Assembly: GCA_016415585.1 (NCBI GenBank)
Contig: CP066552.1
Location: 3,410,001-3,474,000 of the forward strand
Direction: 5' to 3'
Source: Pectobacterium carotovorum
GTDB lineage: Bacteria; Pseudomonadota; Gammaproteobacteria; Enterobacterales; Enterobacteriaceae
Length of the DNA: 64,000 nucleotides
A program made the position numbers and the translations under genes. Each line of letters begins with the position of its first letter. Position 1 is the stretch's first letter. The notes below the pieces were generated by a model. That model saw nothing but the letters and a program-made list of their open reading frames with translations. It made no database searches and was not told the DNA's origin. This document shows positions 9,839 to 58,828 of this stretch, piece by piece.

Positions 9839-10522
9839 ATGACACACTTGCTACAGGATAAGATCATCGTACGCCAATTTGACGTACAGCCGTATGACCC
9901 CGTCTCTCTGGCGATGCATAATTTCACCGACCGACGTGATGATAAAACCCCAGATGAAATCTGGCTGGTTCAGCATCCCCGCGTATTCACGCAGGGTCAG
10001 GCAGGCAAAGCCGAACATGTCCTCATGCCCGGTGACATTCCCGTGATTCAGAGCGACAGAGGCGGTCAGGTAACCTACCACGGCCCCGGTCAGCAGGTCA
10101 TGTACGTGTTGATTGACCTGAAGCGTCGCAAGCTCGGCGTTCGTCAACTTGTCACCGCCATCGAAAACACCGTGATTGGCACGCTGGCACATTTCCAGAT
10201 TGAAGCCCATGCGCGCCCTGATGCACCCGGCGTCTATGTGGCTGAACGTAAAATCTGCTCGTTAGGGCTGCGTATTCGTAAAGGCTGCTCTTTCCATGGA
10301 CTGGCACTCAACATTGCCATGGATCTCTCCCCTTTCCTGCGTATTAATCCGTGTGGTTACGCCGGTATGGAGATGGCGCAACTCAGCGATCTGGTGCCGG
10401 GCGTCACGCTGGATGACACTGCCCCCGTGCTGGTGAATACCTTTTTACAGCTAGTCGGCTATTCCGCACCCGAATTTGTCCCGTGGAATCTGGACGTTCA
10501 GGGTGAGCCACTTCCTGGTTAA
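9839..10522 (+). CDS. lipB: Octanoyltransferase LipB
   Basis: Transfers octanoyl from acyl carrier protein to lipoyl domains, the first step of de novo lipoate synthesis. The 227-residue product has the family motif [12 protein letters not shown], the catalytic lysine region [10 protein letters not shown], and the catalytic cysteine in NPCGYAGM. The start is ATG 9839. Its substrate is completed by LipA, encoded 227 bases downstream. The intervening stretch is AT-rich with no gene visible. Confidence 0.96.
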
Positions 10523-10749
10523 TGCATTTCATCCTGTTAATAAAAATCAGTCAGTTAGACGATCGTTTTTTGATAAATTACATTTTATTCACATAATTTC
10601 TTCATTTTGATCGCGCAAAGGCTGATTGTGGTTAGGCAAGATGATATAATTTTTATAGTTTTTTAAAAAAAAGTTTAACTAAAAACATAATCCTTTGAAT
10701 TTGAATTACAAATTTAAAGAAACGATTCAGAACTGGAACTTACGCAAAC

Positions 10750-11715
10750 ATGAGTAAACCGATTCAGATCGAACGCGGCGTCAAATACCGCGATGCCGAT
10801 AAGATGGCGCTAATCCCGGTACGTACCGTCGTCACCGAACGCCAAGAGCTTCTGCGCAAACCTGAATGGATGAAGATTAAGCTTCCGGCGGATTCAAGCC
10901 GTATTCAGGGAATCAAAGCGGCCATGCGCAAAAACGGGTTGCACTCAGTTTGCGAAGAAGCGTCCTGTCCGAATCTGGCGGAGTGTTTCAACCACGGTAC
11001 CGCCACCTTCATGATTCTGGGCGCCATTTGTACGCGTCGCTGCCCGTTCTGTGACGTTGCCCACGGCCGCCCGCTTACGCCGGATGCCAATGAGCCTGAG
11101 AAACTGGCACAGACCATCCATGACATGGGCTTACGCTATGTCGTGATCACCTCCGTTGACCGTGATGATCTGCGCGACGGTGGAGCCCAGCACTTTGCAG
11201 ACTGCATTAGCGCTATTCGCCGCAAGAACCCGAATATCCGCATCGAAACGCTGGTGCCAGACTTCCGTGGTCGTATGGATCGCGCGTTAGAGATCCTGAC
11301 CGCCACACCGCCAGATGTGTTCAACCACAATCTGGAAAACGTACCGCGCGTTTACCGTCAGGTTCGTCCTGGTGCGAACTATGAGTGGTCACTGAAGCTG
11401 CTGGAAAACTTCAAAAAAGCGCATCCAGATATCCCAACCAAATCTGGCCTGATGGTTGGATTGGGGGAAACCAATGCTGAAATCGTGGAAGTGATGCGTG
11501 ACCTGCGCCGCCACGGTGTGACGATGCTGACGCTGGGACAATATTTACAGCCGAGCCGCCATCACCTGCCAGTACAGCGCTACGTCAGCCCGGATGAGTT
11601 CGATGAGATGAAGGCCGAAGCGATGGCGATGGGCTTTACCCACGCTGCCTGCGGTCCATTTGTTCGCTCGTCCTACCATGCCGACCTACAGGCAAAGGGC
11701 ATCGAAGTAAAATAA
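10750..11715 (+). CDS. lipA: Lipoyl synthase LipA
   Basis: Radical-SAM enzyme that inserts two sulfurs into octanoyl groups on lipoyl domains. The 321-residue product has both iron-sulfur cluster motifs: the auxiliary [12 protein letters not shown] and the radical-[11 protein letters not shown]. The conserved C-terminal serine cluster ligand is in [11 protein letters not shown]. The start ATG 10750 follows a long AT-rich leader. The gene ends at a strong hairpin shared with the convergent tatE. Confidence 0.97.
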
Positions 11716-20134: not shown

Positions 20135-20362
20135 CGGCTTATCCTGACTCAGCAAAAATAATGGGTTTCTCGCTGTCACTTTCCTGTGGTTATTGCACAA
20201 AGATCAGTGAAGGGGAATGAAGTTCTTTTCTACCAGAAACTGCCCTTCATGCAAATAACGTTTATTCACCAGAATAACGCCTCTCATTAGCGGCAATTGG
20301 CTTTCCAAATCCCTGTTTCTTTGGGAGGCGGTTCCATGTTCTAAAAATACAGGGAAAATAAA

Positions 20363-23464: not shown

Positions 23465-23836
23465 ATGACACGTGAAAGAGATGAAATTTATCAGCTCGTG
23501 GGCGAGCTGTTGAGGGGCATTCAACATGGCGATCCCGTTGCTCTATTCGCTTTTGGCGTAAGCCCCACGATTTACGAAGAGATTCTTGAAGAACTGGATA
23601 GTGCGCAAGAAAATCTGGCAGATTTGACACTTCCACCTTATGACGTTGCCTTTACCGCTGATAAAACGGGCAGGATACCCCTGTGCAGTTACGAGATTGA
23701 CACCGACCCTCTGCGAAAGAGAGTCGATTGCCAGTTATGGTCTGGAAAGAAAAAAACCGACCTCACACTCATTGCCGATTACCCGGATAAACAGAAGAAA
23801 GTGCCTCTGGTTTTCCGACTCTTGGAGACGCAGTAA
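23465..23836 (+). CDS. Conserved-looking hypothetical protein, 123 residues
   Basis: Not recognised with certainty. The product is acidic and soluble with no signal peptide or membrane span. Its first half is helical (DEIYQLVGELLRGIQHGDP, EEILEELDSAQENLADL) and the second half is probably beta-rich. A GGAAGAG ribosome site before ATG 23465 and codon use like its neighbours support a real gene. It stands alone between the autotransporter and the convergent ABC gene. Confidence 0.7.
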   Translation: MTRERDEIYQLVGELLRGIQHGDPVALFAFGVSPTIYEEILEELDSAQENLADLTLPPYDVAFTADKTGRIPLCSYEIDTDPLRKRVDCQLWSGKKKTDLTLIADYPDKQKKVPLVFRLLETQ

Positions 23837-23928: not shown

Positions 23929-25731
23929 TCACTCGCCACGCCCGGCAAGGCCACGCTCGCCAAAACCCCTATCAGCACGTTGATGCTGCGCCGCGTCATA
24001 GCCTGTTTGCGTTTCCCATTCATCATGATTATCACTTTCAGCTAACGGTGTCAGATGCAGGTGATGAGTATGCAAGGCGGCCAGCGCTTCCCGATGCGCG
24101 ACGCTGATAATGGCGCTGTCCGGCAAGCCAGTGACCAATGCCTGATAAACCCGCTGCTCGGTCTCAAGATCGAGCGCGCTCGTCGCTTCATCCAGGAAAA
24201 GAAAGTCGGGACGATGCAGCAATGTCCGGGCGACCGCCACTCGCTGCAGCTCGCCGCCGGATAACCGCTGCTGCCAGCGATCTTCGACATTCAGTTGCGA
24301 GGCCATGTCCGGTAATTCACTGTCAATCAGTACCTGACGACACTGCTCGTCAGTGAAGTCCTGCTCGTTAGCGGGGTAGCACAGCGCGGCTTTCAGCGAT
24401 CCCGTTGGAAGGTAGCTTTTTTGCGGTAAAAACAGAGAGCGGCAGCGGCGAGGACGCGTAATCGCCCCGCTACCGTGATGCCATAGCCCGGCACAGGCGC
24501 GCAGCAACGTGCTCTTACCCACGCCGGACGCGCCGTTAATCATCCAGCGTTCGCCGGGTAAAACCTGCCAGTCGTATAATGCCGTCAGCGCACGACCATC
24601 CGGCGTGAGCAGCCGTAAACCCTGACAGGAAAATTCAGATCCATCGTGTTCCGTCACCCGAATAGGCGATGGCGACTGTTCGCTTTTATTCAGCGCTTCT
24701 TCCATATCCTGTAAACGTTTGGTCAACGCCAGCCAGCGCGTGAAGGCCTGATACGCCTGCATAAAATAGCTCAGCGTCGCACCAAGAGAGCCGTAAGCCA
24801 TCTGAATTCGCGTCAAATCACCAAAGGAGATCTCTCCACGCAATAGCTGCGGCAGCGCCAGTAGCGTCGGTAACGGTGAAAGGAAATGGCTAAACAGGCT
24901 CTGACCAAACGACACCTTGAAGCCGCGCAGCAGCACGGACAGCGCATTGTCACGCACGCGCGCAAACCGCTGGGCAAGCCGTTCGCCTTCGCGCGGCCCT
25001 CCCTGATAGAAAGCAATCTGTTCGGCATTTTCACGTAATTGAACGCCCAGAAAGCGGAAGTCACCTTCCGCATTCTGCTGGTTCATGTTCAGCTTGATCA
25101 AAGCCTTACCGAGCCAGTGCGACAGCAAAATCTGGAGAAAGTATTCGATATAAAGGGCATAGACCATATAGCCGGATATCGCCCAGTCGCTGCCCATAAA
25201 CGAGAAGCGCAGCACCCCAGACACCGACCACAGCAGTGCCGTGTACGTTACGGTACTGATGACGACCGAGATAAGACTGAGGAAAAAATTCAGCGAGGCG
25301 GACACCAGCTCATTAACGTCATCGGCAATACGCTGATCGATATTCGACAGCGCACCGTCCCTTTCTATTTCGTAATAAGCCGATGTCCCCGTCCAGCGCC
25401 GGATATAGTGGAGCGTCATCCAGGTACGCCAGCGCAACGCCAGATAGCCTTGACCGAGTACGTTTACCCATCTCAGCATCATGGCACTCAAACCGAGGAT
25501 GAAACTGAAGATAAACAGTGGCTTTATTTGCTCCCAATCCAGCCCAATCAGCGCGTCGGTGAATTTCCCCGATATACGGTTCGCCTCCACGCTGATGTAG
25601 GCCGTACCCAAATTGATGCTAATAATCACCACCAGAATAAACAGCGCCAGATACTTCTCCGGCGTCTGCCAATAGGGCATCAGAATCTGACCGATGCCCG
25701 GTCTTGTCGTACTCGTCTCACTTGCGTTCAT
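23929..25731 (-). CDS. SbmA/YddA-type membrane-ABC transporter fusion
   Basis: 600-residue inner-membrane protein. The N-terminal half has about six membrane helices of the SbmA/BacA type. The C-terminal ATPase domain has Walker A GASGVGKST (about residues 402-410), signature LSGGELQR and Walker B FLFLDEA. The layout matches E. coli YddA and the FusD transporter of the Pectobacterium ferredoxin-uptake locus. It lies 74 bases downstream of the TonB-dependent receptor on the same strand, so the two form an operon. It may move a peptide-like ligand across the inner membrane; direction of transport is inferred, not seen. Confidence 0.88.
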   Translation of the reverse strand: MNASETSTTRPGIGQILMPYWQTPEKYLALFILVVIISINLGTAYISVEANRISGKFTDALIGLDWEQIKPLFIFSFILGLSAMMLRWVNVLGQGYLALRWRTWMTLHYIRRWTGTSAYYEIERDGALSNIDQRIADDVNELVSASLNFFLSLISVVISTVTYTALLWSVSGVLRFSFMGSDWAISGYMVYALYIEYFLQILLSHWLGKALIKLNMNQQNAEGDFRFLGVQLRENAEQIAFYQGGPREGERLAQRFARVRDNALSVLLRGFKVSFGQSLFSHFLSPLPTLLALPQLLRGEISFGDLTRIQMAYGSLGATLSYFMQAYQAFTRWLALTKRLQDMEEALNKSEQSPSPIRVTEHDGSEFSCQGLRLLTPDGRALTALYDWQVLPGERWMINGASGVGKSTLLRACAGLWHHGSGAITRPRRCRSLFLPQKSYLPTGSLKAALCYPANEQDFTDEQCRQVLIDSELPDMASQLNVEDRWQQRLSGGELQRVAVARTLLHRPDFLFLDEATSALDLETEQRVYQALVTGLPDSAIISVAHREALAALHTHHLHLTPLAESDNHDEWETQTGYDAAQHQRADRGFGERGLAGRGE

Positions 25732-25805
25732 GCGCCGTTTCTACCTGCTGATTCGTGTGAATGACCGTTCTCGTCATTTGTCGAACGGATTGGTCGAACG
25801 GATGA

Positions 25806-28181
25806 TCAAAACGAATACGTCCCGGTGAGACGCCACGTCCGCCCTTCCTTCACCCCGATATACAGTGGCGTGGTGCTGGTGTAGTAGATATCGCGATCGA
25901 AGACGTTATTAACCCCTAGCGTCAGCGACCAGTCAGGCTGGCGATAGAACACCGATGCATCGGTTGACGCCGAGCTGCCGATACTGAAGGCGTTATTGCT
26001 CGGACCGTTCTGCGTTTTCGATGAACCGCTGATACCGACTGAGGCACCCGCCCCCTGATAGCGCCCAGACTGCACTTCATAAGACGTCCACACGTTTCCA
26101 GAGTGGCGCGGCGTAATCGTGCTGCGAACGGTGGTAGGATCCTTGTTATCCGAATAGGTATAGCTGGCCGTGACGTCCCATCCCGGCAGCAAAGAGCCGT
26201 TCAGATCCACGTCAAAACCTTCACTTTTGCGTCCCGTTGTTGCAATCGGGAAACCACTACTATCCGTTACCGTCAGGTTTTTTTGCTCAATGCTGAATAC
26301 GGCTGTCGTCAGCGTCAGGTTATCGTCGAGCAGGTTGAATTTCAGCCCGGCCTCTTTAGACTGCCCCGTTGTTGGCGGAAGCTGGACACCAGAGCGCGAG
26401 ACCTGCGCACTGCCGCTAAAGCTATTCAGCAAGTTGGCGTAAATCGTCACGTCCGGTGTGATATCGAAGCTGACGCCATAGTTGGGGATCCATTTGGTCG
26501 CGGTATACGTCGAGGCACGCGATCCCACCAGATAGCTGTTGTCCCATGTCGAACGTTTAACGGCCAGTTGGAAATGCAGGCGGTCAAAGACGTCAATCTG
26601 ATCCTGGAACAAGAAACCGCTTTGAATCAGTTTGGAGGTATACGTCCGGCTGTTCGGTTCACCGATGCCGGGGAACACTAATGAATCCGGGTTATAGACA
26701 TTGCCATTAGTCATCAGGATGAAATTGCCGTCATAGCTGGCATAACGTTCATGCTTATAGTCATGACCGAATAGCAGCGTCTGGGTGACTGGCCCAGTTT
26801 CGATTTTCCCCCGAATGTCATTTTGTTGGCTCCACGTCTGATTGGTGGATTTATAAGCCAGCGGGTGGCTGGTTTTGTCGCCATTAGCGGCAATCAGCAG
26901 CGTTTCGTTCATCTTCATCTGAGACGCGGCGCTCTGAAAACCGGCTTTGCTATTGAACGTCCAATCGCCGACGAGCTTTTGCTCCAGCTCATAATACGCA
27001 TTCGTCGTTTTTGTCTTGTTATGATCGTCTTTATCGCCCAGACGATATTCCGGCAGCTTCTGTATTCTCCCGTTGGCGTAAATCGTCCCGGCTGGCCCCG
27101 ACTTACGCGCCTGATTCACTTCTGCGCCAACCGTGATCCGCGTCTTGTCATTCTGCCAGGTCAAGGCGGGGGCTAAATAATCGCCGTGGTTGCCGTTGTA
27201 ATCAGGAAAGGAATGCTGAGATTTCATGGTTGAGGCGTTCAAACGGTAGCTAAGCGATTTGTCATCCGTAATCGCGCCGCCCAGATCGATAGCCGTTTTG
27301 AATTCTCCGTAACGCGCCGCTTCTACCTTGAGAACATGCAATGGCTCTGTGACCGGCTTTTTACGCACGACGTTAATCGTCCCTGCGGCGGAACTGCTCC
27401 CCGCCAGCACCGACTGCGGCCCTTTCAGCACTTCTACCCGTTCGATGCCTTCAATCGCCGTCCCCTGGCCGATACCCGCATTGCTGGATCCCGACAAGCC
27501 ATCCGTCGCACCGGACGTCACAGCATAGCCGCGCATCCAGTACGTAGGCGTGCCACGGTTTGACTGAATGGTGACCACGCTACCTGAGTTTTTTAACGCA
27601 TCTTCCAGCGACGTTGCCTGACGGGCGTTAATCAGCTTATTACTGATCACTTGCACCGACTGCGCCGTTTGCTGCAACGATGTACTGGTGCGTAATGCCG
27701 AAGACGACGTGCTGGGGTTCAATACTGTTTCATCTTCACTCCCCGCACTGACCGTAATCGCGGGCAGCGTTTTGTCGCTGGCCTGCGCCACTTCTGCATC
27801 ATTGGCACGAGAAGAAACAATGGTCAGCGTGCCATTGTCCGTCGTCGTCAGTAATAAAGGCGTGCCTTGTAATAAACTCAGAATCGCCTGGCGCGTCGAA
27901 TAATTACCATTCAGCGCGGCACTCTGGTAATTCGCCACCAGCGCAGGATTAAAAGAGAGCGTTTGTTTGCTTTGGTTGGCGATAGCCAATAAGCCTTTTT
28001 GCAGATCGCCCGCCGGAATAGCAAAAGCGATCGTGTCATTTTCACCGGCGGCGTAGACGCTAACAGGAACGGCCGTCGCCCCCATGAATAGCGCAGAATG
28101 AATCGCCAGCATATTCGTGAAAAATAAGCGTTTCTTAAAACTTAACCCCAGAGCGGGAGAGGCAGCATTACGTTTTTTCAT
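25806..28181 (-). CDS. TonB-dependent outer-membrane receptor with signalling domain
   Basis: 791-residue FpvA/FecA-class transducer. A signal peptide (about residues 1-45) is followed by an STN signalling domain (about 50-122) that talks to a FecR-type regulator, a plug domain with RGYAVTSG and VEVLKGPQSVLAG, and a 22-strand barrel ending in TYSF. It is divergent from the sigma/FecR pair, the classic arrangement for cell-surface signalling. The family usually takes up siderophores, but ligand specificity cannot be read from the sequence. The gene is preceded by the promoter-like motif shared with two other local operons. Confidence 0.93.
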   Translation of the reverse strand: MKKRNAASPALGLSFKKRLFFTNMLAIHSALFMGATAVPVSVYAAGENDTIAFAIPAGDLQKGLLAIANQSKQTLSFNPALVANYQSAALNGNYSTRQAILSLLQGTPLLLTTTDNGTLTIVSSRANDAEVAQASDKTLPAITVSAGSEDETVLNPSTSSSALRTSTSLQQTAQSVQVISNKLINARQATSLEDALKNSGSVVTIQSNRGTPTYWMRGYAVTSGATDGLSGSSNAGIGQGTAIEGIERVEVLKGPQSVLAGSSSAAGTINVVRKKPVTEPLHVLKVEAARYGEFKTAIDLGGAITDDKSLSYRLNASTMKSQHSFPDYNGNHGDYLAPALTWQNDKTRITVGAEVNQARKSGPAGTIYANGRIQKLPEYRLGDKDDHNKTKTTNAYYELEQKLVGDWTFNSKAGFQSAASQMKMNETLLIAANGDKTSHPLAYKSTNQTWSQQNDIRGKIETGPVTQTLLFGHDYKHERYASYDGNFILMTNGNVYNPDSLVFPGIGEPNSRTYTSKLIQSGFLFQDQIDVFDRLHFQLAVKRSTWDNSYLVGSRASTYTATKWIPNYGVSFDITPDVTIYANLLNSFSGSAQVSRSGVQLPPTTGQSKEAGLKFNLLDDNLTLTTAVFSIEQKNLTVTDSSGFPIATTGRKSEGFDVDLNGSLLPGWDVTASYTYSDNKDPTTVRSTITPRHSGNVWTSYEVQSGRYQGAGASVGISGSSKTQNGPSNNAFSIGSSASTDASVFYRQPDWSLTLGVNNVFDRDIYYTSTTPLYIGVKEGRTWRLTGTYSF

Positions 28182-28643
28182 TTTTCCCTCGTCAATTGCT
28201 TCAACAAATCAGTTTTTATTGGTCTTCGTATGATTTGTGCAATGACGATGAAAAAGTGACAGCAGGAAGTCATTTTTTCCCGTAATTATTTCTCAAACCA
28301 ATATAAGAGATTGATTTTATAAAAATTTTATTTGTGATTTTTAAATAAAAAAGAAATCAGCTTATTGCCAGCCTAGTTTACTTGCCTCATATCACGCTCC
28401 CCGTCTCTCTCTTCTAAGGCAGTGGCATAAAATGAAGCGCTAACACGAAGCCCCCCAGAAATAGCGATTTCCCCATTCCAATCAGCAACAGAACATTTCT
28501 AACTAACCATAGAAAAAAAACGTGGTTTGGCTCCTGCAAATTTTGACTTAAAAACAGCACAGGACGCATCGTTCCTTTTGTTCTGCGGCCCTGGGGTATC
28601 CCGGCTCAAGCATTGTTGTGATTTACGCTATTTAAGGATGCCC
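28182..28643. other. Divergent intergenic region between receptor and sigma factor
   Basis: About 460 bases. The left part holds the shared promoter motif of the receptor operon; the middle is very AT-rich. No clear Fur box (GATAATnATTATC type) was found, which is odd for an iron-type receptor. The sigma gene lacks the shared motif upstream. Confidence 0.5.
28227..28262 (-). promoter_or_regulatory. Candidate ECF-sigma promoter of receptor operon
   Basis: On the minus strand: an A6 tract, 13 bases, then TCACTTTTTC, four bases, TCATTGCACA and ATC. The same order of blocks occurs upstream of tonB (30251) and of the pmbA-like gene (32607). It ends about 45 bases before the receptor start. Likely recognised by the FecI-type sigma encoded next door; this is inference. 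Confidence 0.65.
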
Positions 28644-29165
28644 ATGTACACAGAGGCTGTTAAAAAACCCGACTTACTGTCGCTGATATTTCGCAGCGAT
28701 TATCGCTGGCTAACGGAAAAATTACGCCGCCGTATTGCCTACGGCTGTGAAGCGGAAGATGTCGCCTCTGAGGCATTTTTACGTTTAGCGTCTCTGCCGA
28801 ATCTCGCCAACGTACAAGAACCGCGTGCGATGCTCACTACGCTCGCCAAACGCGTACTGTATGAAAACTGGCGTCGTCGCGATCTGGAAAAATCCTATCT
28901 CACGGCGCTGGCAAGTAAACCTGAATTTCACCATCCGTCGCCGGAAGAGCAACAGCTTTTGATGGAAGCGCTGCTCACAATCGATCAGGCGCTGGATGGG
29001 CTATCCATCAAAGCACGACAGGCCTTTCTGTTCAGCCAGCTTGACGGCATGACCTATGCCGACATTGCCGTACAGCTCGATGTCTCCGCCAGCATGGTGA
29101 GGAAGTATATCGCCAAAGCGCTGACCAACTGCTATCTGGCCACGCAGGACAGCAGTGACTTATAG
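28644..29165 (+). CDS. FecI-type ECF sigma factor
   Basis: 173-residue extracytoplasmic-function sigma factor, the length of FecI. Region 2 spans about residues 10-80 (SDYRWLTEKLRRRI, AEDVASEAFLRL, RAMLTTLAKRVLYENWRRR). Region 4 at about 115-165 has the helix-turn-helix DGMTYADIAVQLDVSASMVRKYI. ATG 28644 is preferred because an AAGG site lies six bases upstream; longer readings add unrelated residues. It is followed by a FecR-type gene nine bases on. Probably activates the receptor, tonB and protease operons in this block. Confidence 0.92.
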   Translation: MYTEAVKKPDLLSLIFRSDYRWLTEKLRRRIAYGCEAEDVASEAFLRLASLPNLANVQEPRAMLTTLAKRVLYENWRRRDLEKSYLTALASKPEFHHPSPEEQQLLMEALLTIDQALDGLSIKARQAFLFSQLDGMTYADIAVQLDVSASMVRKYIAKALTNCYLATQDSSDL

Positions 29166-29174
29166 GTGAACCGC

Positions 29175-30143
29175 ATGGCAAGACGACACATGGACGACCC
29201 GATTGCCGAAGAGGCAATTGAATGGATGGTGCTGCTGCGCTCCGGTGAAGCAACCCAGACCGATTACGATGAGTACCGCCGCTGGCGATACGAAAACCCG
29301 CTGCACGAGCGAGCCTGCCAACGCATTGAGCGAACGCTGGGGAAATTCCAGCCGCTGCTTGCCGCGCTGCCTCATGAGCCGATTCGTCAGGCGCTCTTAG
29401 CACCATCAGGCCGACGGAAAGTCCTGCAATACGGGCTGGGGATGGTGGCTGTCGCGTCGCTAAGCAGCCTGATGTTTAATCAGCATTACCCTCTGTCACC
29501 GCTTCTGTCCGACGTAAAAACCGCAACGGCACAGCGCCAACAGGTTCCACTCAGTGACGGCAGTATGCTCATGTTGAACGCGCGTACCGCTGTCGATATC
29601 AATGTGCACCCAGAAACGCCAGTGCGCCAGGTTGCGCTACATAACGGCGGTATCTTCGCCAATATTCAGCCAGATACGCAGCGCCCCTTCGTGATCGCCA
29701 CTGGTATGGGCGATATCGTCGCCCTTCAGGCCAATGTGAACGTGCGTTATGAAAGCGGTGGTATCCATGTCGGCGTGTTGGACAACATCGCCAAAATTAC
29801 CAACCACGCCGGACAAAGCCTGCGCCTTCACGCGGGTCAGGGTGTCTGGTTCGATCGTTCCACACTCTATCACGTCGCCGTTACGCCGGAATCAGAAACA
29901 GACTGGTTACACGGCCGGCTGGAAGTACGCGATCGTTCGTTGGCTTCCGTCATCAGTACGCTACGTGATTACACCCCCGGCATCATCCGGCTGGATCCTG
30001 CTATCGCCGATCTGCGCGTCAGCGGGAATTTCCCGCTCGATAATCTGAACTACACGCTGGATTCGCTGGCGCAAACCATGCCTATCGCAATTGTGCATAC
30101 CACCGATTACTGGATACATATCCGCGCCGCCAGACCGACATAA
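29175..30143 (+). CDS. FecR-type sigma regulator
   Basis: 322-residue inner-membrane protein. It has an N-terminal cytoplasmic domain (DUF4880-like, AEEAIEWMVLLRSGEATQTDYDEYRRW), a membrane span at about residues 80-98, a periplasmic FecR domain (LSDGSMLMLNARTAVDI, GMGDIVALQANVNVRY), and a C-terminal STN-like region that would contact the receptor signalling domain. ATG 29175 is preferred over GTG 29166 because AGGTG lies six bases before it. Relays ligand binding at the receptor to the adjacent sigma factor. Confidence 0.92.
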   Translation: MARRHMDDPIAEEAIEWMVLLRSGEATQTDYDEYRRWRYENPLHERACQRIERTLGKFQPLLAALPHEPIRQALLAPSGRRKVLQYGLGMVAVASLSSLMFNQHYPLSPLLSDVKTATAQRQQVPLSDGSMLMLNARTAVDINVHPETPVRQVALHNGGIFANIQPDTQRPFVIATGMGDIVALQANVNVRYESGGIHVGVLDNIAKITNHAGQSLRLHAGQGVWFDRSTLYHVAVTPESETDWLHGRLEVRDRSLASVISTLRDYTPGIIRLDPAIADLRVSGNFPLDNLNYTLDSLAQTMPIAIVHTTDYWIHIRAARPT

Positions 30144-30154
30144 ACGGTAAGCCA

Positions 30155-30179
30155 CAAAAAAACGCCGGGAGCGTTTTTT
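30155..30179 (+). terminator. Terminator after the FecR-type gene
   Basis: Short stem AAAAACGC / GCGTTTTTT around CGGGA, 12 bases after the stop codon. It separates the sigma/FecR operon from tonB. Confidence 0.85.
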
Positions 30180-30206
30180 GACGTCACGACGTGACGGCCC
30201 GTCAGG

Positions 30207-30230
30207 GTGGCAACCAAGGACGGTTGCCAC
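30207..30230. repeat. Perfect inverted repeat before tonB promoter
   Basis: GTGGCAACC and GGTTGCCAC separated by six bases, directly followed by an A7 tract and then the shared promoter motif. It could be an operator or an RNA hairpin; no T run follows, so it is not a plain terminator. Confidence 0.5.
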
Positions 30231-30250
30231 AAAAAAATTTCGCGCGCATG

Positions 30251-30286
30251 GTGACACTTTTTCTGCCTCGTTGCACATCGTTAATA
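30251..30286 (+). promoter_or_regulatory. Candidate ECF-sigma promoter of tonB-exbBD
   Basis: GTGACACTTTTTCTGCCTCG followed by TTGCACATC, preceded by an A-tract and TTTCG. It aligns closely with the motif upstream of the pmbA-like gene and of the receptor. It lies about 75 bases before the tonB start. Confidence 0.65.
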
Positions 30287-30359
30287 GAGGTCATCATAGT
30301 TCCGTGTTCAGGACTGGATGAAACGTCCGACACCGTAAGCCAGAGCAGCAGAGGAAAAT

Positions 30360-31241
30360 GTGCAACAGGCATCCGTGCAACACCTTTCGTTAAACGCGTG
30401 CGTCGACGCGGCTCCCGCCGCACGGCGTGACGTCGCCCCCGCACAGCCGTCGCGAAATGTGACGATGGCTGCCCCCGTTCGGGGAGAAATGGGGAAGATC
30501 GCGCTCAGCTTTCTGACGGTCGCGCTGATCCATGCGGGTGTCGCCGCGTTGCTCATCACGCGTACCACCGAATACACACCGATCAATCTGCTTAATCCGG
30601 CAGCCAGCATCAGCATTCAGGCCACGATGGTTGAAGCGCCAGAACCCGAACCGATTCCCGAGCCGTCGCCGGAACCACCCGTGCTGACATCAGAACAGGG
30701 GGAACGTGAAATTGCACCCGTCCCTGAAAAGCCCATCGTTGAGGAGCAGCAGACGCCGCCCCCGACGGTCAAAAAAGAAGTTCACCAGCCGCCGGTGAAG
30801 CCAGTAGTCAAACCGCAGCCCGTCCGACCTAAAACTATCGCCGAGCGTCAGCCTGCGGCTCGTTCTACACCGGAGCCTTCCCCCGCCGCGCCGGAAGCGA
30901 CACCAGGCCCGCTGACTACCGCCAGCAAAGGCAACCTGATGCAGAACAGTCCGGGTGCACAGCCCAAGCAGGTCGCTTCCGTCGGCTGTGTCGTTCCGCA
31001 GCCTGACTACCCTCGCCGCGCCAAACGTCTCCAGCAGGAAGGCAACGTGCTGGTTCGTCTGGTCATTAGCCCAGAGGGACGCTTGATTCGGCACGACATT
31101 GCCCGCAGCAGCGGCTATGACGCCCTCGATCAGGCCGCGATTGACGCCGTAGCGCAAGCGCGCTGTACGCCTTACCGCGAAAACGGACAGGCCATTACCG
31201 TCATGACGGTTCAGCCAGTCAATTTCCGGCTGACTCATTAA
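30360..31241 (+). CDS. TonB energy-transducing protein (locus-specific)
   Basis: 293-residue TonB-like protein: a basic 47-residue N-terminal extension, one membrane helix (about 48-67, IALSFLTVALIHAGVAALLI), a Pro/Glu/Lys-rich periplasmic linker, and the C-terminal TonB domain (YPRRAKRLQQEGNVLVRLVI, followed by a central SGYDALDQAAIDAVAQ). The start GTG 30360 follows a GAGG site. It is in operon with ExbB and ExbD homologs, so it is probably a private motor for the nearby receptor rather than the housekeeping TonB. Confidence 0.92.
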   Translation: MQQASVQHLSLNACVDAAPAARRDVAPAQPSRNVTMAAPVRGEMGKIALSFLTVALIHAGVAALLITRTTEYTPINLLNPAASISIQATMVEAPEPEPIPEPSPEPPVLTSEQGEREIAPVPEKPIVEEQQTPPPTVKKEVHQPPVKPVVKPQPVRPKTIAERQPAARSTPEPSPAAPEATPGPLTTASKGNLMQNSPGAQPKQVASVGCVVPQPDYPRRAKRLQQEGNVLVRLVISPEGRLIRHDIARSSGYDALDQAAIDAVAQARCTPYRENGQAITVMTVQPVNFRLTH

Positions 31242-31319
31242 GAAAGAATCCGCGTTGAAATAGCGCATCCGCCGTTTCGCCGACACGCCCGAATCAGGCT
31301 ATTGCATAAGAGGTCACAC

Positions 31320-32060
31320 ATGAACACGTTAGATATCCACCATTTTTGGCAGCAGGGCGATCTTGTTACTCACTCGGTAGCCATCATTCTGCTCATCATG
31401 TCGCTGCTGTCATGGACGGTCATGCTGCTCAAAGCACGGCAGCTGTTTGCATTGAACAAGAGCGTGCAATACAGCCGCAATACCTTTTGGCAGGCGACCA
31501 GCCTGCAAGAAAGCGTCGAGAAATTTGGCAAACAGCGTTTTAATCCGTTCCGCGATCTGGTGATCGAAGGACATGCGCTGCTGAAACACCCGCACAAATT
31601 CTCTTCCACGCTGGGCGGACACGTCGATCTCAGCGACTGGCTGGTACGCGGCCTGAGCAACACGCTGGACACCAACTCAGGGAAACTGCAATCCGGCCTC
31701 GGAACGCTGGCCTCTATCGGCAGCACCGCACCGTTTATCGGCCTGTTGGGCACCGTATGGGGGATTTTTCACGCGTTGCAAACCATCAACACCATCGGCC
31801 AGCCCGATCTGGCGCAGGTGGCTGGCCCGGTCGGCGAAGCATTGATCATGACGGCATTTGGCCTGTTCGTGGCGATTCCCGCCGTATTAGGGTTCAACGC
31901 CATTAACCGCCGCAACCGTATCGTCCTGCATGCCATGAATCGCTTTGCACACGATCTCCACGCTTACCTGCTGACGGGCGCGCGCGTAGATACCAGCCTT
32001 AGCGACCTGAATAGCCCCACGCGGTATGAAGCGGCTCACCCCGTTGAACGCTCCGCCTGA
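31320..32060 (+). CDS. ExbB-like proton channel subunit
   Basis: 246-residue MotA/TolQ/ExbB family protein with three membrane helices. The core motif SIGSTAPFIGLLGTVWGI and the third-helix region GEALIMTAFGLFVAIPAV are visible. ATG 31320 follows an AAGAGG site. With ExbD it uses the proton gradient to energise TonB. Placed between tonB and exbD homologs in one operon. Confidence 0.93.
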   Translation: MNTLDIHHFWQQGDLVTHSVAIILLIMSLLSWTVMLLKARQLFALNKSVQYSRNTFWQATSLQESVEKFGKQRFNPFRDLVIEGHALLKHPHKFSSTLGGHVDLSDWLVRGLSNTLDTNSGKLQSGLGTLASIGSTAPFIGLLGTVWGIFHALQTINTIGQPDLAQVAGPVGEALIMTAFGLFVAIPAVLGFNAINRRNRIVLHAMNRFAHDLHAYLLTGARVDTSLSDLNSPTRYEAAHPVERSA

Positions 32061-32074
32061 AGAGGAACACCGCC

Positions 32075-32497
32075 ATGAGTATGTCATCCCCGTTTGAAAG
32101 TCAGGAAGACGCGCTGCTTAACGACATCAACATGACACCGTTTATCGACGTCATGCTGGTGCTGCTGATCGTGTTTATGATTACCCTGCCGGTCATTAAC
32201 CACACCGTTAAAGTGGAGCTGCCGCGCGCCAGCGTCGAGAAAATCAAGAAAGATCCGCAGGCCGTGGATATCGCGATTACCGCGACGGGGCAGATTAACT
32301 GGAATAAAGAAGCGGTTGATGATGCCCAACTGATTGCCAAACTCGATGCGGCCTCAGCCGACGGCACTCACCCGAATATACGGCTGTTTGCCGATCAGGC
32401 CGTCGAGTATGGCCGGGTCGCGTATGTCATGACTAACGCCCAACAGCGCGGCCTGAGCAAGATTGATTTCGTCCTGCAACCCGTCAAAACGCCCTAA
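32075..32497 (+). CDS. ExbD-like proton channel subunit
   Basis: 140-residue TolR/ExbD family protein with one membrane helix. It carries the conserved proton-pathway aspartate in NDINMTPFIDVMLVLLIVFM, then a periplasmic domain. It starts 14 bases after the ExbB gene with a GAGGAA ribosome site. Completes the TonB motor of this locus. Confidence 0.94.
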   Translation: MSMSSPFESQEDALLNDINMTPFIDVMLVLLIVFMITLPVINHTVKVELPRASVEKIKKDPQAVDIAITATGQINWNKEAVDDAQLIAKLDAASADGTHPNIRLFADQAVEYGRVAYVMTNAQQRGLSKIDFVLQPVKTP

Positions 32498-32510
32498 TAT
32501 CCTCTTTTTC

Positions 32511-32542
32511 CCTGATGCTTACAGCCTTGTCAGCATCAGGGC
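32511..32542. terminator. Hairpin after exbD homolog
   Basis: CCCTGATGCT and AGCATCAGGG around a short loop, preceded by a T run but not followed by one. It may act as a weak terminator or protect the transcript end. Confidence 0.5.
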
Positions 32543-32606
32543 ACATCATCCAGAACCTATCATCTCTCCCTCATCTAGCCCCTGCGTAAAAAAGTTTCGT
32601 CGCACG

Positions 32607-32642
32607 GTGACGCTTTTCTTTCTTCGTTACACATCATGAGTA
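32607..32642 (+). promoter_or_regulatory. Candidate ECF-sigma promoter of pmbA-tldD-trx operon
   Basis: GTGACGCTTTTCTTTCTTCG followed by TTACACATC, with an A6 tract and TTTCG upstream, as at 30251. It lies about 30 bases before the pmbA-like start. Confidence 0.65.
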
Positions 32643-32670
32643 GAACACTGTCACGCATGGATACCGAATA

Positions 32671-34035
32671 ATGCCTTCTCTTGATGAATCCCCCGCTCTT
32701 GCTATGCCGCAGACCGATACGCTTCAGTCTTTGGCCGGAGACGTGCTGGACTTCGCTGCCGCCAAAGGCGCGAGTCAGGCAGTCGTTAGCGTCTCGCAGG
32801 GAAACCGCCGCACGATCCGCGTCAGGAACGGAGATATTGATACGCTGACGCAAAACCAAAGTCGCTTCCTGTCCGTTACGGTCTATTTCGGCCAGCGCGC
32901 AGGCACCGTTTCTTCTACCTTGTTCAGCAAAGACGCGTTGCAGGATGCCGTTGGTGCCGCCAGCACGCTGGCAAAATACGCCGATGAAGACCCTTGTAGC
33001 GGCCTGCCGGAAACGCAGTATTTTGCCCGTGATATTTACGATCTTGCGCTGCATAACGCTGATACGCTGACGGTTGAACAAGCGCTGTCGCTGGCGCTGC
33101 GCGCCGAACAGGCCGCCAATACCGCACATGAGTATGGCTATAGCGAGAGTACGGAAATCACCTCGCAGCTGGGAGACTTTATTCTGGCAAACTCTGCCGG
33201 TTTTTCGGCAGGCTACCCTACGTCGCTGCACACGCTGTGGAGCCATACAATTGCTCGTAATGATACACAGCGCCAGCAGGGTTTTTGGCACACCACCGCC
33301 AGAGCGCCGTCGCTGCTGGCTCCGCCAGAGGCTATCGGACATACCGCTGCGCAACGTGCGGTAGCACAGTTAGGTGCGCGAAAACTCTCAACCCGCCGCT
33401 GCCCGGTCTTGTTTGATGCCCCCATGGCGCACAGCCTGATTCACCATCTGGTCAGCGCGCTGAGCGGCGCGGCGCTTTATCGCTCCACGTCATTTCTGGG
33501 GCAGTGCCTCGGTGAGGCAATCACCGCACCACATCTGAGCCTGCACGAAAACCCGTTTATTCCTGGCGCACTGGCTAGCGCCTGCTTTGATGCCGAAGGC
33601 GTCGCCGCCTCTCGCCGCCACGTCATTCACGACGGCATCGCACAAGGTTACTTTTTATCAAGCTACAGCGCACGGCGGCTAGGGTTATCTCCCACGGGAC
33701 ATGCGGGTGGTGCCTATAACCTGAGCGTCAGTAGCAGCCAGAACTGCCCCGATGATGACTTGCCGGCGCTGCTGCGCAGCATGCAAAAAGGGCTGCTGGT
33801 GACCACGCTGCTGGGAAGTGGGCTGAATCCGATGACGGGCGACTACTCCCAAGGCGTTGCAGGTTTTTGGGTCGAAAACGGCGAAATTCAGTATCCAGTC
33901 GAAGAGATCACGATTGCAGGCAACCTGAAAACGCTGCTCCTGAGATGCGTGGCACTCGGTGCGGATATCCACACGCAGGGCAACCTCTCCTGCGGCTCCC
34001 TATTGATTGAAGAGATGCAGATCGCTGGGCAGTAA
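32671..34035 (+). CDS. PmbA/TldE-like protein
   Basis: 454-residue member of the TldD/TldE family, most like the non-catalytic TldE (PmbA) subunit. It has the C-terminal family signature LGSGLNPMTGDYSQGVAGFW, then VENGE, PVEEITIAGNL and so on, and no HExxxH motif. In E. coli TldD and TldE form a heterodimer that degrades unstructured peptides, matures microcin B17 and degrades CcdA. This copy is an extra paralog, since it sits in a TonB locus next to its catalytic partner rather than at the housekeeping place. Confidence 0.88.
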   Translation: MPSLDESPALAMPQTDTLQSLAGDVLDFAAAKGASQAVVSVSQGNRRTIRVRNGDIDTLTQNQSRFLSVTVYFGQRAGTVSSTLFSKDALQDAVGAASTLAKYADEDPCSGLPETQYFARDIYDLALHNADTLTVEQALSLALRAEQAANTAHEYGYSESTEITSQLGDFILANSAGFSAGYPTSLHTLWSHTIARNDTQRQQGFWHTTARAPSLLAPPEAIGHTAAQRAVAQLGARKLSTRRCPVLFDAPMAHSLIHHLVSALSGAALYRSTSFLGQCLGEAITAPHLSLHENPFIPGALASACFDAEGVAASRRHVIHDGIAQGYFLSSYSARRLGLSPTGHAGGAYNLSVSSSQNCPDDDLPALLRSMQKGLLVTTLLGSGLNPMTGDYSQGVAGFWVENGEIQYPVEEITIAGNLKTLLLRCVALGADIHTQGNLSCGSLLIEEMQIAGQ

Positions 34036-34072
34036 TCCTCCCACACCGCGTCATAGAAACAGGATCACCATC

Positions 34073-35518
34073 ATGGCAATACACGCTTCCAGAGCGCCAG
34101 TCTCCCCTGCACTGTCGGTATTTTCGCTGGAAACGACGGGGATAACACACGCGCTGAACCACATCATGCAGCGTCAGGTAGACTATGCCGATCTCTATTT
34201 TCAACGCCGCCAGCAGGAAGGCTGGCAGATCGAAAACGGCATTGTGCGTCCCACCGGTTTCAGCCGCGATCAAGGTGTTGGCGTCCGTGCCATCAGCGGT
34301 GAAAAGACCGCGTTTTCCTACACTAATGACCTCCGCCCGCAGGCTATTCTGCAAGCAGCCAGCACTGTAAGAGAAATCAGCCGTCAGGGGCAAAGCGCTA
34401 GCGTGGCATTACCCGCATCGCTACCACACGGCACCACCGCGCTCTACCCATCAAACAATCCGCTACTTGCCGTCACGGAAGAACAAAAACGCCAGTTGCT
34501 GCTTTCTATCGATCGTCAGGCACGAGCACGCGACCCCCGAGTGATGCAGGTAACGGCTTACTTGAATGCCTCACATGAAACCATTCTGATCGCTCGACAT
34601 GACGGTCAGCTCGCCACCGACATTCGTCCACTGGTGAATCTGGTCATCAATGTCGTCGTCGAGCAGCAGGGCCGTCGGGAAAATGGTTCTAGCGGTGGCG
34701 GGCGGCGTCTCGACTACCGATTCTTTGATGACGAGACGGTCAGCCACTGGGTCAATAAGGCTGTTGATCAGGCACTGAATAATCTAGACGCCAGTCCGGT
34801 GCCAGCAGGCACCTATAGCGTGATCCTCGGTGCTGGTTCACCCGGAATTTTGCTACACGAAGCCATCGGGCACGGACTGGAAGGCGATTTTAACCGCAAA
34901 GGCAGTTCCGCATTCTCCAGCCTATTGGGAGAGCGCGTCGCCGCACCGGGCATCACCGTCGTGGATGACGGCACGCTCGCCAACCGACGGGGTTCGTTGC
35001 ATGTAGACGATGAAGGCACGCCGTCGCAGTGCACAACGTTAATCGAAGACGGCATACTACGCGGTTATTTACAGGACAGCCTCAACGCCAGACTGATGAA
35101 TACCGCCCTGACGGGCAACGCACGTCGGGCGTCCTACTCCGCGCTGCCGCTGCCACGGATGACCAATACCTACATGTTAGCAGGACAGTACCCTGCCGAA
35201 GAGGTGATCGCGTCGGTCAAAAACGGGCTCTACGCCGTCGGCTTCGGCGGTGGACAGGTTGATATCAGCAGCGGGAAATATGTCTTTTCCACCACGGAAG
35301 CCTATCTGATTGAAAACGGGCGCGTCACCCGCCCCGTGAAGGGCGCGACGCTGATTGGTCACGGGCCAGAAGCACTGCTGCACGTCGCGATGGTAGGCAA
35401 CGATCTGGCTTTGGATAACGGCAATATCGCGTGCACCAAAGAAGGCCAATCCCTGCCCGTCAGCGTCGGCCAGCCAACGCTTCGCATAGACAACATGACC
35501 ATAGGCGGTTCGCAGTAG
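34073..35518 (+). CDS. TldD-like metalloprotease
   Basis: 481-residue catalytic TldD homolog, the same length as E. coli TldD. The zinc motif HEAIGHGLEGD (HExxxH) is present, with a conserved cysteine near the end (NIACTKEGQSLPVSVG) and the VDDEGTPSQ segment. The start is ATG 34073, 37 bases after the PmbA-like gene. With its partner it should form a chamber that hydrolyses short or unfolded peptides. Its placement after a TonB motor suggests it processes an imported peptide; that is inference. Confidence 0.9.
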   Translation: MAIHASRAPVSPALSVFSLETTGITHALNHIMQRQVDYADLYFQRRQQEGWQIENGIVRPTGFSRDQGVGVRAISGEKTAFSYTNDLRPQAILQAASTVREISRQGQSASVALPASLPHGTTALYPSNNPLLAVTEEQKRQLLLSIDRQARARDPRVMQVTAYLNASHETILIARHDGQLATDIRPLVNLVINVVVEQQGRRENGSSGGGRRLDYRFFDDETVSHWVNKAVDQALNNLDASPVPAGTYSVILGAGSPGILLHEAIGHGLEGDFNRKGSSAFSSLLGERVAAPGITVVDDGTLANRRGSLHVDDEGTPSQCTTLIEDGILRGYLQDSLNARLMNTALTGNARRASYSALPLPRMTNTYMLAGQYPAEEVIASVKNGLYAVGFGGGQVDISSGKYVFSTTEAYLIENGRVTRPVKGATLIGHGPEALLHVAMVGNDLALDNGNIACTKEGQSLPVSVGQPTLRIDNMTIGGSQ

Positions 35519-35588
35519 GCCGTTTCGTCATGGTGCATTGCCTGCTACCTACTCAATTTACTCACGATTTTCTCTGAACGGAGACACC

Positions 35589-36854
35589 ATGTCAGATGCC
35601 ATTATCACTGCCAGCGACACCTCGCTGGATGCGTTACTCACTCATAGCGACAAGCCCGTTTTGCTTGACCTGTGGGCCCCGTGGTGCCAGCCATGTAAAA
35701 CATTGGCTCCTCTGCTGAACACCATTGCCGATAACACCCCCGATAACCTGACGGTGGTCAAGCTGGATGTGGAGCGATATCCGGCATTCATGCAGCGGTT
35801 TGGGGTGCGCGGCATTCCTACTCTGCTGCTGTTTAAAAACGGACAGGAGATTTCACGGCAGATCGGCGTGAAAACGCTGGCACAGCTGCGCGGCTGGCTG
35901 GAATCGCACCAGATTGCGATACAAAACACCACACAGCCGTTGGCAGCCCCCCGCGTAACGTGGGGAGCGTTCTATGGCGATGCGTCGCTACACCGTTTTC
36001 TCCACCAGCGGCTGCGTCAACATGCAGCGGATGGCGATATAGAACACGCATTCTCACCCTATTGGCAGGGCAACAAAGGCTCTGTCTCTGCCGTGCTGAC
36101 GCACAGCGAGGACATTCGCATTTTTGAACGCGTCACCGGGCTACCTGCCGCTCTCGGCCTGCTGTTGGAAAAACTACCGAGCACCACACCTGCACAGGTT
36201 GACGCCCTCTTTGATGCACTCTCTCCGGGAAAAACCGTAGAAGGGGTGGCACTGCAATGGCTACAGCAATGGTTAGACGATGCGGGCAATCCGTGGTCAG
36301 ACTGGCTGGCAGACAGCACTGTAGACGGGCTGCGCAAACAGTGGATTCGTGCGATTTCGCAACGGTTAGCGGGAGAAACCGTGGCAGAAAGCGAATGGAC
36401 AACCCTGTATCAGCAGGCAATAAGTTGGGAAGAGAAAGCCTCCGGCGAACTCGGCCTGGAAAAAAATATTGCGGCAATACTCGCTAGCCTATCGCCGCCT
36501 CCAACCGCATCTGATGTGGATAGCTGGCGAAGCATCAGTGTCACGCTCGGATTCGCGCTGGCGCAGATCATGCAAATTAACGACGGATGGAACAGAGAAG
36601 AACGCGCAACGCCGGATAAACGCTTCCGCTGGTTTAAAGAACAAGAAGACGCCACGCCCAACAAACAGCTAACGGATGAGCAAATTACCGCGCTCCGTAA
36701 GCAATGGCTTCAGGAGAACCCGGATTTTTCCGCGAAAGAGGACGCGTTTTATCAGCGCTATCCACAGTTGTTAGAAGCGCAGAAAATCCCCTTACAGGAA
36801 ACGCTGTGGGAATTGCTTCGCCATGCGCCGACCTTCAAATCACAATTGAGCTAA
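35589..36854 (+). CDS. Thioredoxin domain fused to a C-terminal region of unknown function
   Basis: 421 residues. The first 105 or so form a thioredoxin fold with the active site WAPWCQPCK and the cis-proline segment GIPTLLLFKNG. The remaining 300 residues are helical, acidic and not recognised; they differ in appearance from the TPR region of CnoX/YbbN. No signal peptide, so cytoplasmic. ATG 35589 matches the thioredoxin start. It is the last gene of the pmbA-tldD unit and may reduce disulfides in the ligand handled by the locus. Confidence 0.85.
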   Translation: MSDAIITASDTSLDALLTHSDKPVLLDLWAPWCQPCKTLAPLLNTIADNTPDNLTVVKLDVERYPAFMQRFGVRGIPTLLLFKNGQEISRQIGVKTLAQLRGWLESHQIAIQNTTQPLAAPRVTWGAFYGDASLHRFLHQRLRQHAADGDIEHAFSPYWQGNKGSVSAVLTHSEDIRIFERVTGLPAALGLLLEKLPSTTPAQVDALFDALSPGKTVEGVALQWLQQWLDDAGNPWSDWLADSTVDGLRKQWIRAISQRLAGETVAESEWTTLYQQAISWEEKASGELGLEKNIAAILASLSPPPTASDVDSWRSISVTLGFALAQIMQINDGWNREERATPDKRFRWFKEQEDATPNKQLTDEQITALRKQWLQENPDFSAKEDAFYQRYPQLLEAQKIPLQETLWELLRHAPTFKSQLS

Positions 36855-58739: not shown

Positions 58740-58758
58740 AATGATAATAGTTATCATT
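58740..58758 (-). promoter_or_regulatory. Fur box
   Basis: AATGATAATAGTTATCATT is a near-perfect palindrome matching the Fur consensus (GATAATGATAATCATTATC type), about 30 bases before the binding-protein start. Confidence 0.9.
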
Positions 58759-58828
58759 ATTTAAATGATATCCTGCCGTGATTATCAGAAGCAATGGGTT
58801 TTTAGCGCAGCGTTAATAAAAGGAAAAA

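Follow-up and report, generated by a model that had tools for sequence, protein, structure and literature searches.

The genes considered here lie in a 64 000 nt stretch of the complete 4.74 Mb genome of Pectobacterium carotovorum (GenBank accession number CP066552.1; coordinates 3410001–3474000), which is referred to below as the window and whose own numbering is used throughout. They encode a TonB-dependent receptor, an ABC protein, a FecI/FecR pair, TonB, ExbB and ExbD, a TldE and a TldD protein and a thioredoxin fusion protein, a set that seems designed to capture an extracellular peptide or small protein, move it across the two membranes and break it down in the cell, using either of two unrelated proteases. 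An earlier note on this sequence had listed the same ten genes, and each was found as an open reading frame where the note had placed it, with family matches above the Pfam cut-offs. The note had described one contiguous locus and the genes do adjoin. However, they form two divergent blocks, with the receptor and ABC genes, in that order, on the minus strand and fecI, fecR, tonB, exbB, exbD, tldE, tldD and the thioredoxin fusion gene on the plus strand, and the unit reaches further left, to a subtilase gene.

The ABC protein (23929–25731, minus strand) has a membrane domain (ABC_membrane_2, 155.7 bits; SbmA_BacA, 61 bits) and an ATPase with Walker A, signature and Walker B motifs, the combination that marks an SbmA/YddA-type protein. 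Its best match among solved structures was 6TQE (E 1.1e-74), which we take to be Rv1819c, an importer. It is thus like Rv1819c, SbmA, BacA and YddA in its membrane and ATPase domains, but differs from them in that its gene belongs to a TonB-linked locus that also encodes a sigma factor. The receptor (25806–28181, minus strand) includes barrel, Plug and N-terminal STN signalling domains (STN 31.3 bits, cut-off 28.4) and scored 270.3 bits against TIGR01783 (cut-off 223.5). On the plus strand are a FecI-type extracytoplasmic function (ECF) sigma factor (28644–29165; Sigma70_r4_2 and r2), with its start set where the profile match begins, a FecR-type sigma regulator (29166–30143; FecR), TonB (30360–31241; TonB_C), an ExbB/TolQ-type proton channel (31320–32060; MotA_ExbB) and ExbD (32075–32497; ExbD). 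An STN receptor, FecR and FecI are therefore adjacent, as in FecI/FecR signalling systems. The remaining genes encode a TldE/PmbA paralogue (32671–34035), a TldD paralogue (34073–35518) and a 421 aa fusion (35589–36854) of a thioredoxin (Pfam thioredoxin; WCQPC at residue 32) and a 300 aa helical domain. The probable starts of fecI (28644), exbB (31320), tldD (34073) and the fusion gene (35589) were chosen by reading frames.

The receptor, the ABC protein, TldE, TldD and a thioredoxin with the helical domain were found together in five other enterobacterial genera and three Pseudomonas, and also in Burkholderia cenocepacia, Paraburkholderia caribensis, Novosphingobium and Sphingomonas. Gene order varies among the lineages while the content is constant, pointing to selection on content. 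When the window was compared with three Pectobacterium relatives, dN/dS values, where computable, were 0.04–0.17 for the ten genes (substitutions were saturated in one comparison of FecI and one of TonB, and the subtilase was left out). As the gene set recurs in related and distant genomes and is under purifying selection, it is not a product of chance.

A second TldD/TldE pair and its exchange for an M16 protease

Three PmbA/TldD domains were found in each of the two window proteins, and their genes are paired, as in the TldD/PmbA family. The window TldD retains the HExxxH motif (HEAIGH at residue 284 of the longest frame) and a Cys that aligns with one in the solved TldD (5NJ5), where it presumably has a role at the metal site. 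As housekeeping tldD and pmbA genes are located elsewhere in the same genome, at ~352 and ~363 kb, the window genes are paralogues, and they are not orthologues of the housekeeping pair, since both copies coexist and separate in trees. The window TldE shares 41% identity with the PmbA of the same genome and scored 392.7 against the PmbA equivalog, below the cut-off of 438, whereas the TldD score of 595.1 exceeded its equivalog cut-off of 513. The pair thus resembles the TldD/TldE (PmbA) heterodimeric protease in family, HExxxH motif and aligned Cys, but represents a second, system-specific lineage beside the housekeeping one.

In trees of 26 TldD and 26 TldE sequences, a single branch parts 17 system rows from nine housekeeping rows, with support of 99/99 and 100/99, respectively. 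Identical sequences, matches below 150 bits, duplicate loci and a third, distant TldD-like pair of three Pseudomonas genomes were excluded. System TldD and TldE from alpha-, beta- and gammaproteobacteria fall on the same side of this branch, an arrangement that would allow, though it does not prove, a single recruitment, given that the trees have no root and include some long branches. The three Pseudomonas genomes with the third TldD/PmbA-like pair are G1046, G1047 and G1048.

The housekeeping PmbA was present in all 25 Pectobacterium genomes examined, with 41–42% identity to the window TldE. A second TldE was intact in 12 of them (85–100% identity) and fragmented in one (G693), and all 13 extra genes occur in genomes that carry the fusion gene (Fisher exact p 1.1e-4, for relatives that are not independent). 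The earlier note had held that its proposal would fail if the TldD, PmbA and thioredoxin genes were not linked to the TonB genes in related genomes, and the linkage was borne out, as each of the 13 extra TldE genes, 12 intact and one broken, was mapped to this locus.

In two loci, L060 (a contig of P. carotovorum DSM 30168, as is L025) and L061, the tldE-tldD block has been deleted except for the last 33 bp of tldD, and a gene for an M16 protease has been added. Their alignment to the window runs at 89–97% as far as the end of exbD (stop at 32497 or 32498) and picks up again at 35486, within the end of tldD, and the proteins of these loci are otherwise 88–99% identical to those of the window. 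The tldD remnant indicates that the TldD/TldE state came first in L060 and L061. The added gene, 33 bp after the ABC gene, encodes a protein of 904 aa with an HxxEH motif, and dN/dS between its L060 and L061 copies was 0.13. As the receptors share 98% (L061) and 88% (L060) identity with that of the window, the cargo of the swapped loci is probably the same. However, exbD in L061 has an early stop, which speaks against the swap evidence from this locus, and L061 may be decaying.

The 42 loci tabulated, from a scan of species genomes, further genome stretches and plasmids, include three repeats of a listed locus and one that holds the remaining half of a plasmid locus. Of the 42, 28 encode TldE and TldD, nine an M16 protease and five neither, and none encodes both within the stretches examined, some of which stop short of the far side of the ABC gene. 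Further M16 versions were found in Pantoea, on a Klebsiella plasmid, in Marinomonas, in a second locus of genome G677 and in Sphingomonas sp. NY01. Two Pantoea loci (L122 and L123) are on plasmids of Pantoea agglomerans and include receptor, M16 and ABC genes with FecI/FecR and TonB-ExbB-ExbD. The natural swap suggests that TldD/TldE and the M16 protease can take the same place in the pathway, probably acting on one and the same cargo. The suggestion of the earlier note that TldD/TldE stand in for an M16 protease gains support from the swap inside Pectobacterium and from the absence of loci with both, and the protease replacement is considered well supported. The same two unrelated protease types, M16 (PqqF/PqqG) and TldD/TldE, have been proposed to serve one pathway in the processing of the pyrroloquinoline quinone (PQQ) precursor (PMC8602642), although that pathway is biosynthetic, whereas import is proposed here.

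The L060 M16 protease matched PqqL (6ofs) and the structures 6brs and 6b03, which we take to be FusC, over only ~200 residues (E 1e-14 to 2e-19); better matches (E 1e-39 to 1e-40) were to zinc proteases of shorter length. A periplasmic M16 protease of the FusC/PqqL subfamily was found neither in the window, which has TldD/TldE instead, nor in L060, where the M16 protease has no signal-peptide-like start. When the starts of the proteins were scored on the Kyte-Doolittle scale in 15-residue windows, a crude test, no strongly hydrophobic start was found in TldE, TldD, the fusion protein (1.01) or five gammaproteobacterial M16 proteases, the best windows scoring 0.99–1.18, whereas the receptor scored 1.67 and the subtilase 2.21. 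As TldE, TldD, the fusion and five of the six M16 proteases tested have no signal-peptide-like start, digestion is probably cytoplasmic.

No family of its own was found for the helical C-terminal domain of the fusion, and comparison with solved structures found no known fold, an absence that is weak as evidence. Two sphingomonad operons include a gene for a thioredoxin reductase, next to that for thioredoxin, and a gene for an M3 peptidase. The pairing of reductase and thioredoxin supports a reducing step, as the earlier note had proposed. In the Sphingomonas parapaucimobilis stretch L082, the frame of the thioredoxin reductase gene (9872–10867) is broken, and the gene is absent from the gene table of the record.

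Other M16-type neighbourhoods were also noted. The version on a mobilizable Klebsiella pneumoniae plasmid (L077; accession number NZ_CP055068.1) has insertion sequences on both flanks. In the genome of Marinomonas spartinae as available (G1049; M16-type locus L034), no match to the TldD/PmbA C-terminal domain was found. The second, import-like locus of G677 (L072; G677:C1:366000-385900) encodes two receptors, two M16 proteases, a lone thioredoxin and two lone proteins that resemble the helical domain. Plasmid M16 matches in Nitratireductor, Asticcacaulis and plasmid 4 of Sphingomonas parapaucimobilis were set aside, as by annotation their neighbourhoods are different.

A promoter-like motif and a surface subtilase

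An oriented repeat was first noticed in the intergenic gaps, and the pattern GWCRCTTT-N7-TYRTTRCACA was written from four window sites. These are located 164 bp upstream of the subtilase start (20175–20199, plus strand), 55 bp upstream of the receptor gene (28236–28260, minus strand), 83 bp upstream of tonB (30253–30277, plus strand) and 38 bp upstream of tldE (32609–32633, plus strand). The 4.74 Mb genome contains four exact sites, all in this locus, though the exactness of the four follows from how the pattern was built, and similar stretches in Pseudomonas and Burkholderia loci had already been seen beforehand, both of which weigh against reading too much into the count. No further site was found genome-wide with one mismatch, and three more were found with two, the backward control giving 11 in all; the chance expectation within the window, at up to two mismatches, is 0.02.

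With up to two mismatches allowed, ten loci of other genera contain 20 sites, with the consensus TGTCACTTTT-N5-CTcNTTGCACAtA. Of the 19 that were mapped to genes (L121 was left out of the mapping), 17 are close to a receptor, tonB or ABC gene, at positions that range from 78 bp upstream of its longest-frame start to 26 bp within the frame; the overlaps suggest that those longest frames start too far upstream. For the other two, the next mapped gene is 401 bp (L031) or 721 bp (L079) away. No site was found in the M16 loci L077, L033, L034 and L072, in L041 or in the sphingomonad stretches, where the regulators differ.

No copy of the motif is present upstream of the window fecI, in line with Escherichia coli, where FecI is not known to transcribe its own gene. 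The locus is like the FecI/FecR/FecA system in having an STN receptor, FecR and FecI together, but the units that bear the motif include those for cytoplasmic proteases, thioredoxin and a surface subtilase. We infer that the motif is the promoter of the sigma factor encoded in the locus. The spacing of its two blocks is shorter than is usual for ECF promoters, and another dedicated regulator may read the motif. Equivalent units of other genera carry the motif as well, which gives sensing, uptake and digestion the appearance, in these sequence comparisons, of one private regulon.

The leftmost motif precedes a gene for an autotransporter with an S8 subtilase passenger (20363–23317, plus strand; Peptidase_S8, 114.7 bits; Autotransporter, 133.4 bits). 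The protein has a lipobox-like LAGC at residue 36, and its Asp, His and Ser motifs are in place at 87, 122 and 310. An orthologue (at least 78% identity over nearly the whole length) was found in 14 of 16 Pectobacterium genomes with the fusion gene, including G693, where a stop lies inside the gene, and in none of nine without it (Fisher p 2.7e-5 for 25 genomes, again not independent). What the nine have instead is a different autotransporter that matches at only 25–29% or, in the case of G687, a remnant of 28 residues (79%). The earlier note had overlooked the subtilase gene in drawing the limits of the locus, although it has the same promoter-like motif and co-occurs with the other genes; the locus is thus larger than was stated, while the original observation is confirmed.

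Proposed pathway and alternative explanations

The most likely function is the induced uptake of a peptide or protein fragment, probably disulfide-bearing, followed by its reduction and proteolysis in the cytoplasm. In Pectobacterium, the surface subtilase would cut a protein or free the cargo. The STN receptor would bind the cargo and signal via FecR to the FecI-type sigma factor, which would transcribe four units (subtilase, receptor-ABC, tonB-exbB-exbD and tldE-tldD-thioredoxin fusion) from a shared private promoter. The private TonB-ExbB-ExbD would then drive the cargo into the periplasm, and the Rv1819c/YddA-type protein would take it into the cytoplasm. There, the thioredoxin domain may reduce the disulfides of the cargo, with the helical domain either keeping hold of it or serving as a docking site for the protease, and TldD/TldE, or M16 in some lineages, would degrade it. 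That the locus encodes a pathway for taking up a peptide or small polypeptide, induced by this cargo itself, is favoured by a narrow balance of probability. A fuller version is held only tentatively, namely that this is self-contained peptide harvesting under one sigma factor, in which the subtilase makes fragments, the sensing receptor and motor take them up, and an exchangeable cytoplasmic module of thioredoxin, adaptor and protease feeds uptake into protein catabolism, possibly for sulfur or amino acids and not for iron.

To our knowledge, the import of whole polypeptides via TonB-dependent receptors has been described for very few systems, and what happens past the periplasm is mostly guessed. 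The closest parallels are the Fus system and yddA-yddB-pqqL of E. coli, which also combine a receptor, a TonB-like energiser, an ABC protein and a protease in one locus. Protease-associated import was defined by Grinter et al. around FusA-type receptors, with other proteases sometimes associated with FusA homologues, and with PqqL and FusC acting in the periplasm (PMC6793856). The words thioredoxin, TldD and FecI are absent from the main text of that article. The window has the gene set of this kind of import, with receptor, TonB, protease and ABC protein together. However, TldD/TldE or a signal-less M16 protease replace periplasmic FusC/PqqL, a thioredoxin fusion and FecI/FecR are present, and none of the solved receptors matched is named FusA. 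The locus seems to work like protease-associated import with a different type of receptor and with cytoplasmic proteases, a reducing protein and surface signalling added. The likeness to Fus drawn in the earlier note holds for the gene set, but not in the strict sense, given siderophore-type receptor matches and digestion that is probably cytoplasmic. Clusters for lasso-peptide receptors and isopeptidases are also similar, in that a receptor and FecI/FecR-type control occur there with a peptidase dedicated to the peptide taken up, but here the peptidase is different and no lasso synthesis genes were noticed. No paper on this gene set was found in the literature searched, which covered few subscription papers.

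Several observations weigh against induced peptide uptake as set out above, or against all of its parts being required. The receptor looks siderophore-type by sequence. As the thioredoxin fusion was not matched in the two loci on Pantoea plasmids, reduction is not obligatory. FecR has no match in Pseudomonas loci L028 and L030, a similar pair, neither FecI nor FecR has one in L121, and in the sphingomonad stretches tabulated, where a LysR-type gene precedes the receptor gene, no match to FecI, FecR, TonB, ExbB or ExbD was found, indicating that control and motor vary. One of the six M16 proteases tested, that of Sphingomonas sp. NY01, scored 1.55 and has a signal-peptide-like start, and this version may digest its cargo in the periplasm. 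Among the loci tabulated, the subtilase was found only in Pectobacterium, with no match in the loci of other genera, and G151 has the locus and retains the motif but has no subtilase gene. Nine of the 25 Pectobacterium genomes have no fusion match, the C-terminal domain being present in the other 16, and outside the genus this domain is rare.

The strongest competitor, though a doubtful one, is the uptake of a peptidic metallophore, in which a metal-bound peptide siderophore or chalkophore of another organism is imported and the proteases and thioredoxin strip the metal in the cytoplasm. Among solved structures, 28 sequences matched the receptor at E up to 0.001, mostly siderophore receptors by name, with CntO, FoxA, FpvA and FhuA nearest, and this agrees with its TIGR01783 score. 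FecI/FecR signalling is typical of iron carriers, but the E. coli fec promoters are bound by Fur (reviewed in PMC9249621), whereas no Fur box was found in the locus within three mismatches of the 19-base consensus. The same search found 17 matches genome-wide, some of them one place on both strands, compared with one for the reversed pattern. The strongest Fur and Zur matches in each of 19 promoter regions were unremarkable beside those in shuffles that preserved base composition only, except for one Zur match (p 0.025, the lowest of 38 uncorrected tests). Plain Fur-controlled iron uptake was set aside on this basis, weaker boxes being possible, and so was Zur control. One of the 17 matches lies in the window, a Fur-box-like site at 58743–58761, just upstream of a gene for a putative metal-binding periplasmic protein (57583–58710).

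It is unlikely that the system provides protection by importing and destroying an antimicrobial peptide or microcin, serving immunity and not nutrition. Microcins are known to be taken up and processed with the help of SbmA-type proteins and TldD/TldE, and both the patchy distribution and the M16-type version on a Klebsiella plasmid would suit such a role. However, a private energised receptor that raises uptake would be an odd defence, a signalling pair tuned to the cargo fits harvesting better, and the plasmid version holds the whole uptake set, not the protease alone.

A role in maturation and export, where TldD/TldE would trim a peptide of the cell's own, the ABC protein would export it and the receptor would sense or recover it, is less probable again. 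TldD/TldE finish microcin B17 and are the proposed stand-ins for M16 in PQQ synthesis (PMC8602642), but no precursor-peptide or modification gene stood out in the mapped loci, where short frames were not searched systematically, and the nearest solved relative of the ABC protein is presumably an importer. A last explanation, that the locus serves ordinary siderophore uptake and that unrelated housekeeping genes came to lie beside it, would fit the receptor family but is already disfavoured and is the least credible, as system TldD/TldE of three proteobacterial classes share one side of one tree branch, their unit carries the shared promoter-like motif in Pectobacterium, and content stays while order differs between lineages.

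For induced peptide uptake, the locus seems to join surface sensing, energised uptake, an SbmA-like inner-membrane transporter and cytoplasmic proteases in one regulon. If so, TldD/TldE would have a role beyond housekeeping and peptide maturation. The locus also points to a new thioredoxin-linked domain, and the four promoter-like sites offer a route to the cargo through a reporter.

Distribution of the fusion protein and minor observations

A search with the fusion protein found 83 proteins, 65 of them near full length, among 7,996 candidates scored, with matches that include Pectobacterium, Brenneria, Dickeya, Klebsiella, Duganella, Roseateles and Nitrospirillum. When one peptide pattern taken from the C-terminal half of the fusion was run against 84,980 species genomes, 11 loci were found. 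Given the number of candidates scored and the single pattern, the true distribution may be wider than this minimum. Among sampled genomes, the C-terminal domain was present in four of 398 genomes of the phylum with a single-sequence query, in one of 369 genomes of the class with a profile, this being the genome of the window itself, and in three of 348 genomes of the genus of a Pseudomonas genome, two of which were already known. In a sample of the family, at least nine of 295 genomes had a match that extends well beyond the thioredoxin domain.

Three Pectobacterium genomes with the fusion gene have no second TldE; two of these have the M16 protease, and G694 has the fusion gene with remnants of the ABC and subtilase genes. 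In G689, which has no fusion gene, a partial ABC gene of the locus was found at 72%, a sign of loss. The fusion genes on a Rhodocyclaceae contig (L035) and the Cupriavidus plasmid pBB1 (L078) were not counted as the system, as no other tested gene was found in either stretch. A gene for a 123 aa protein without a Pfam family is located to the left of the ABC gene in the window (23465–23836) and to the right of the thioredoxin fusion gene in L025 (11085–11456).

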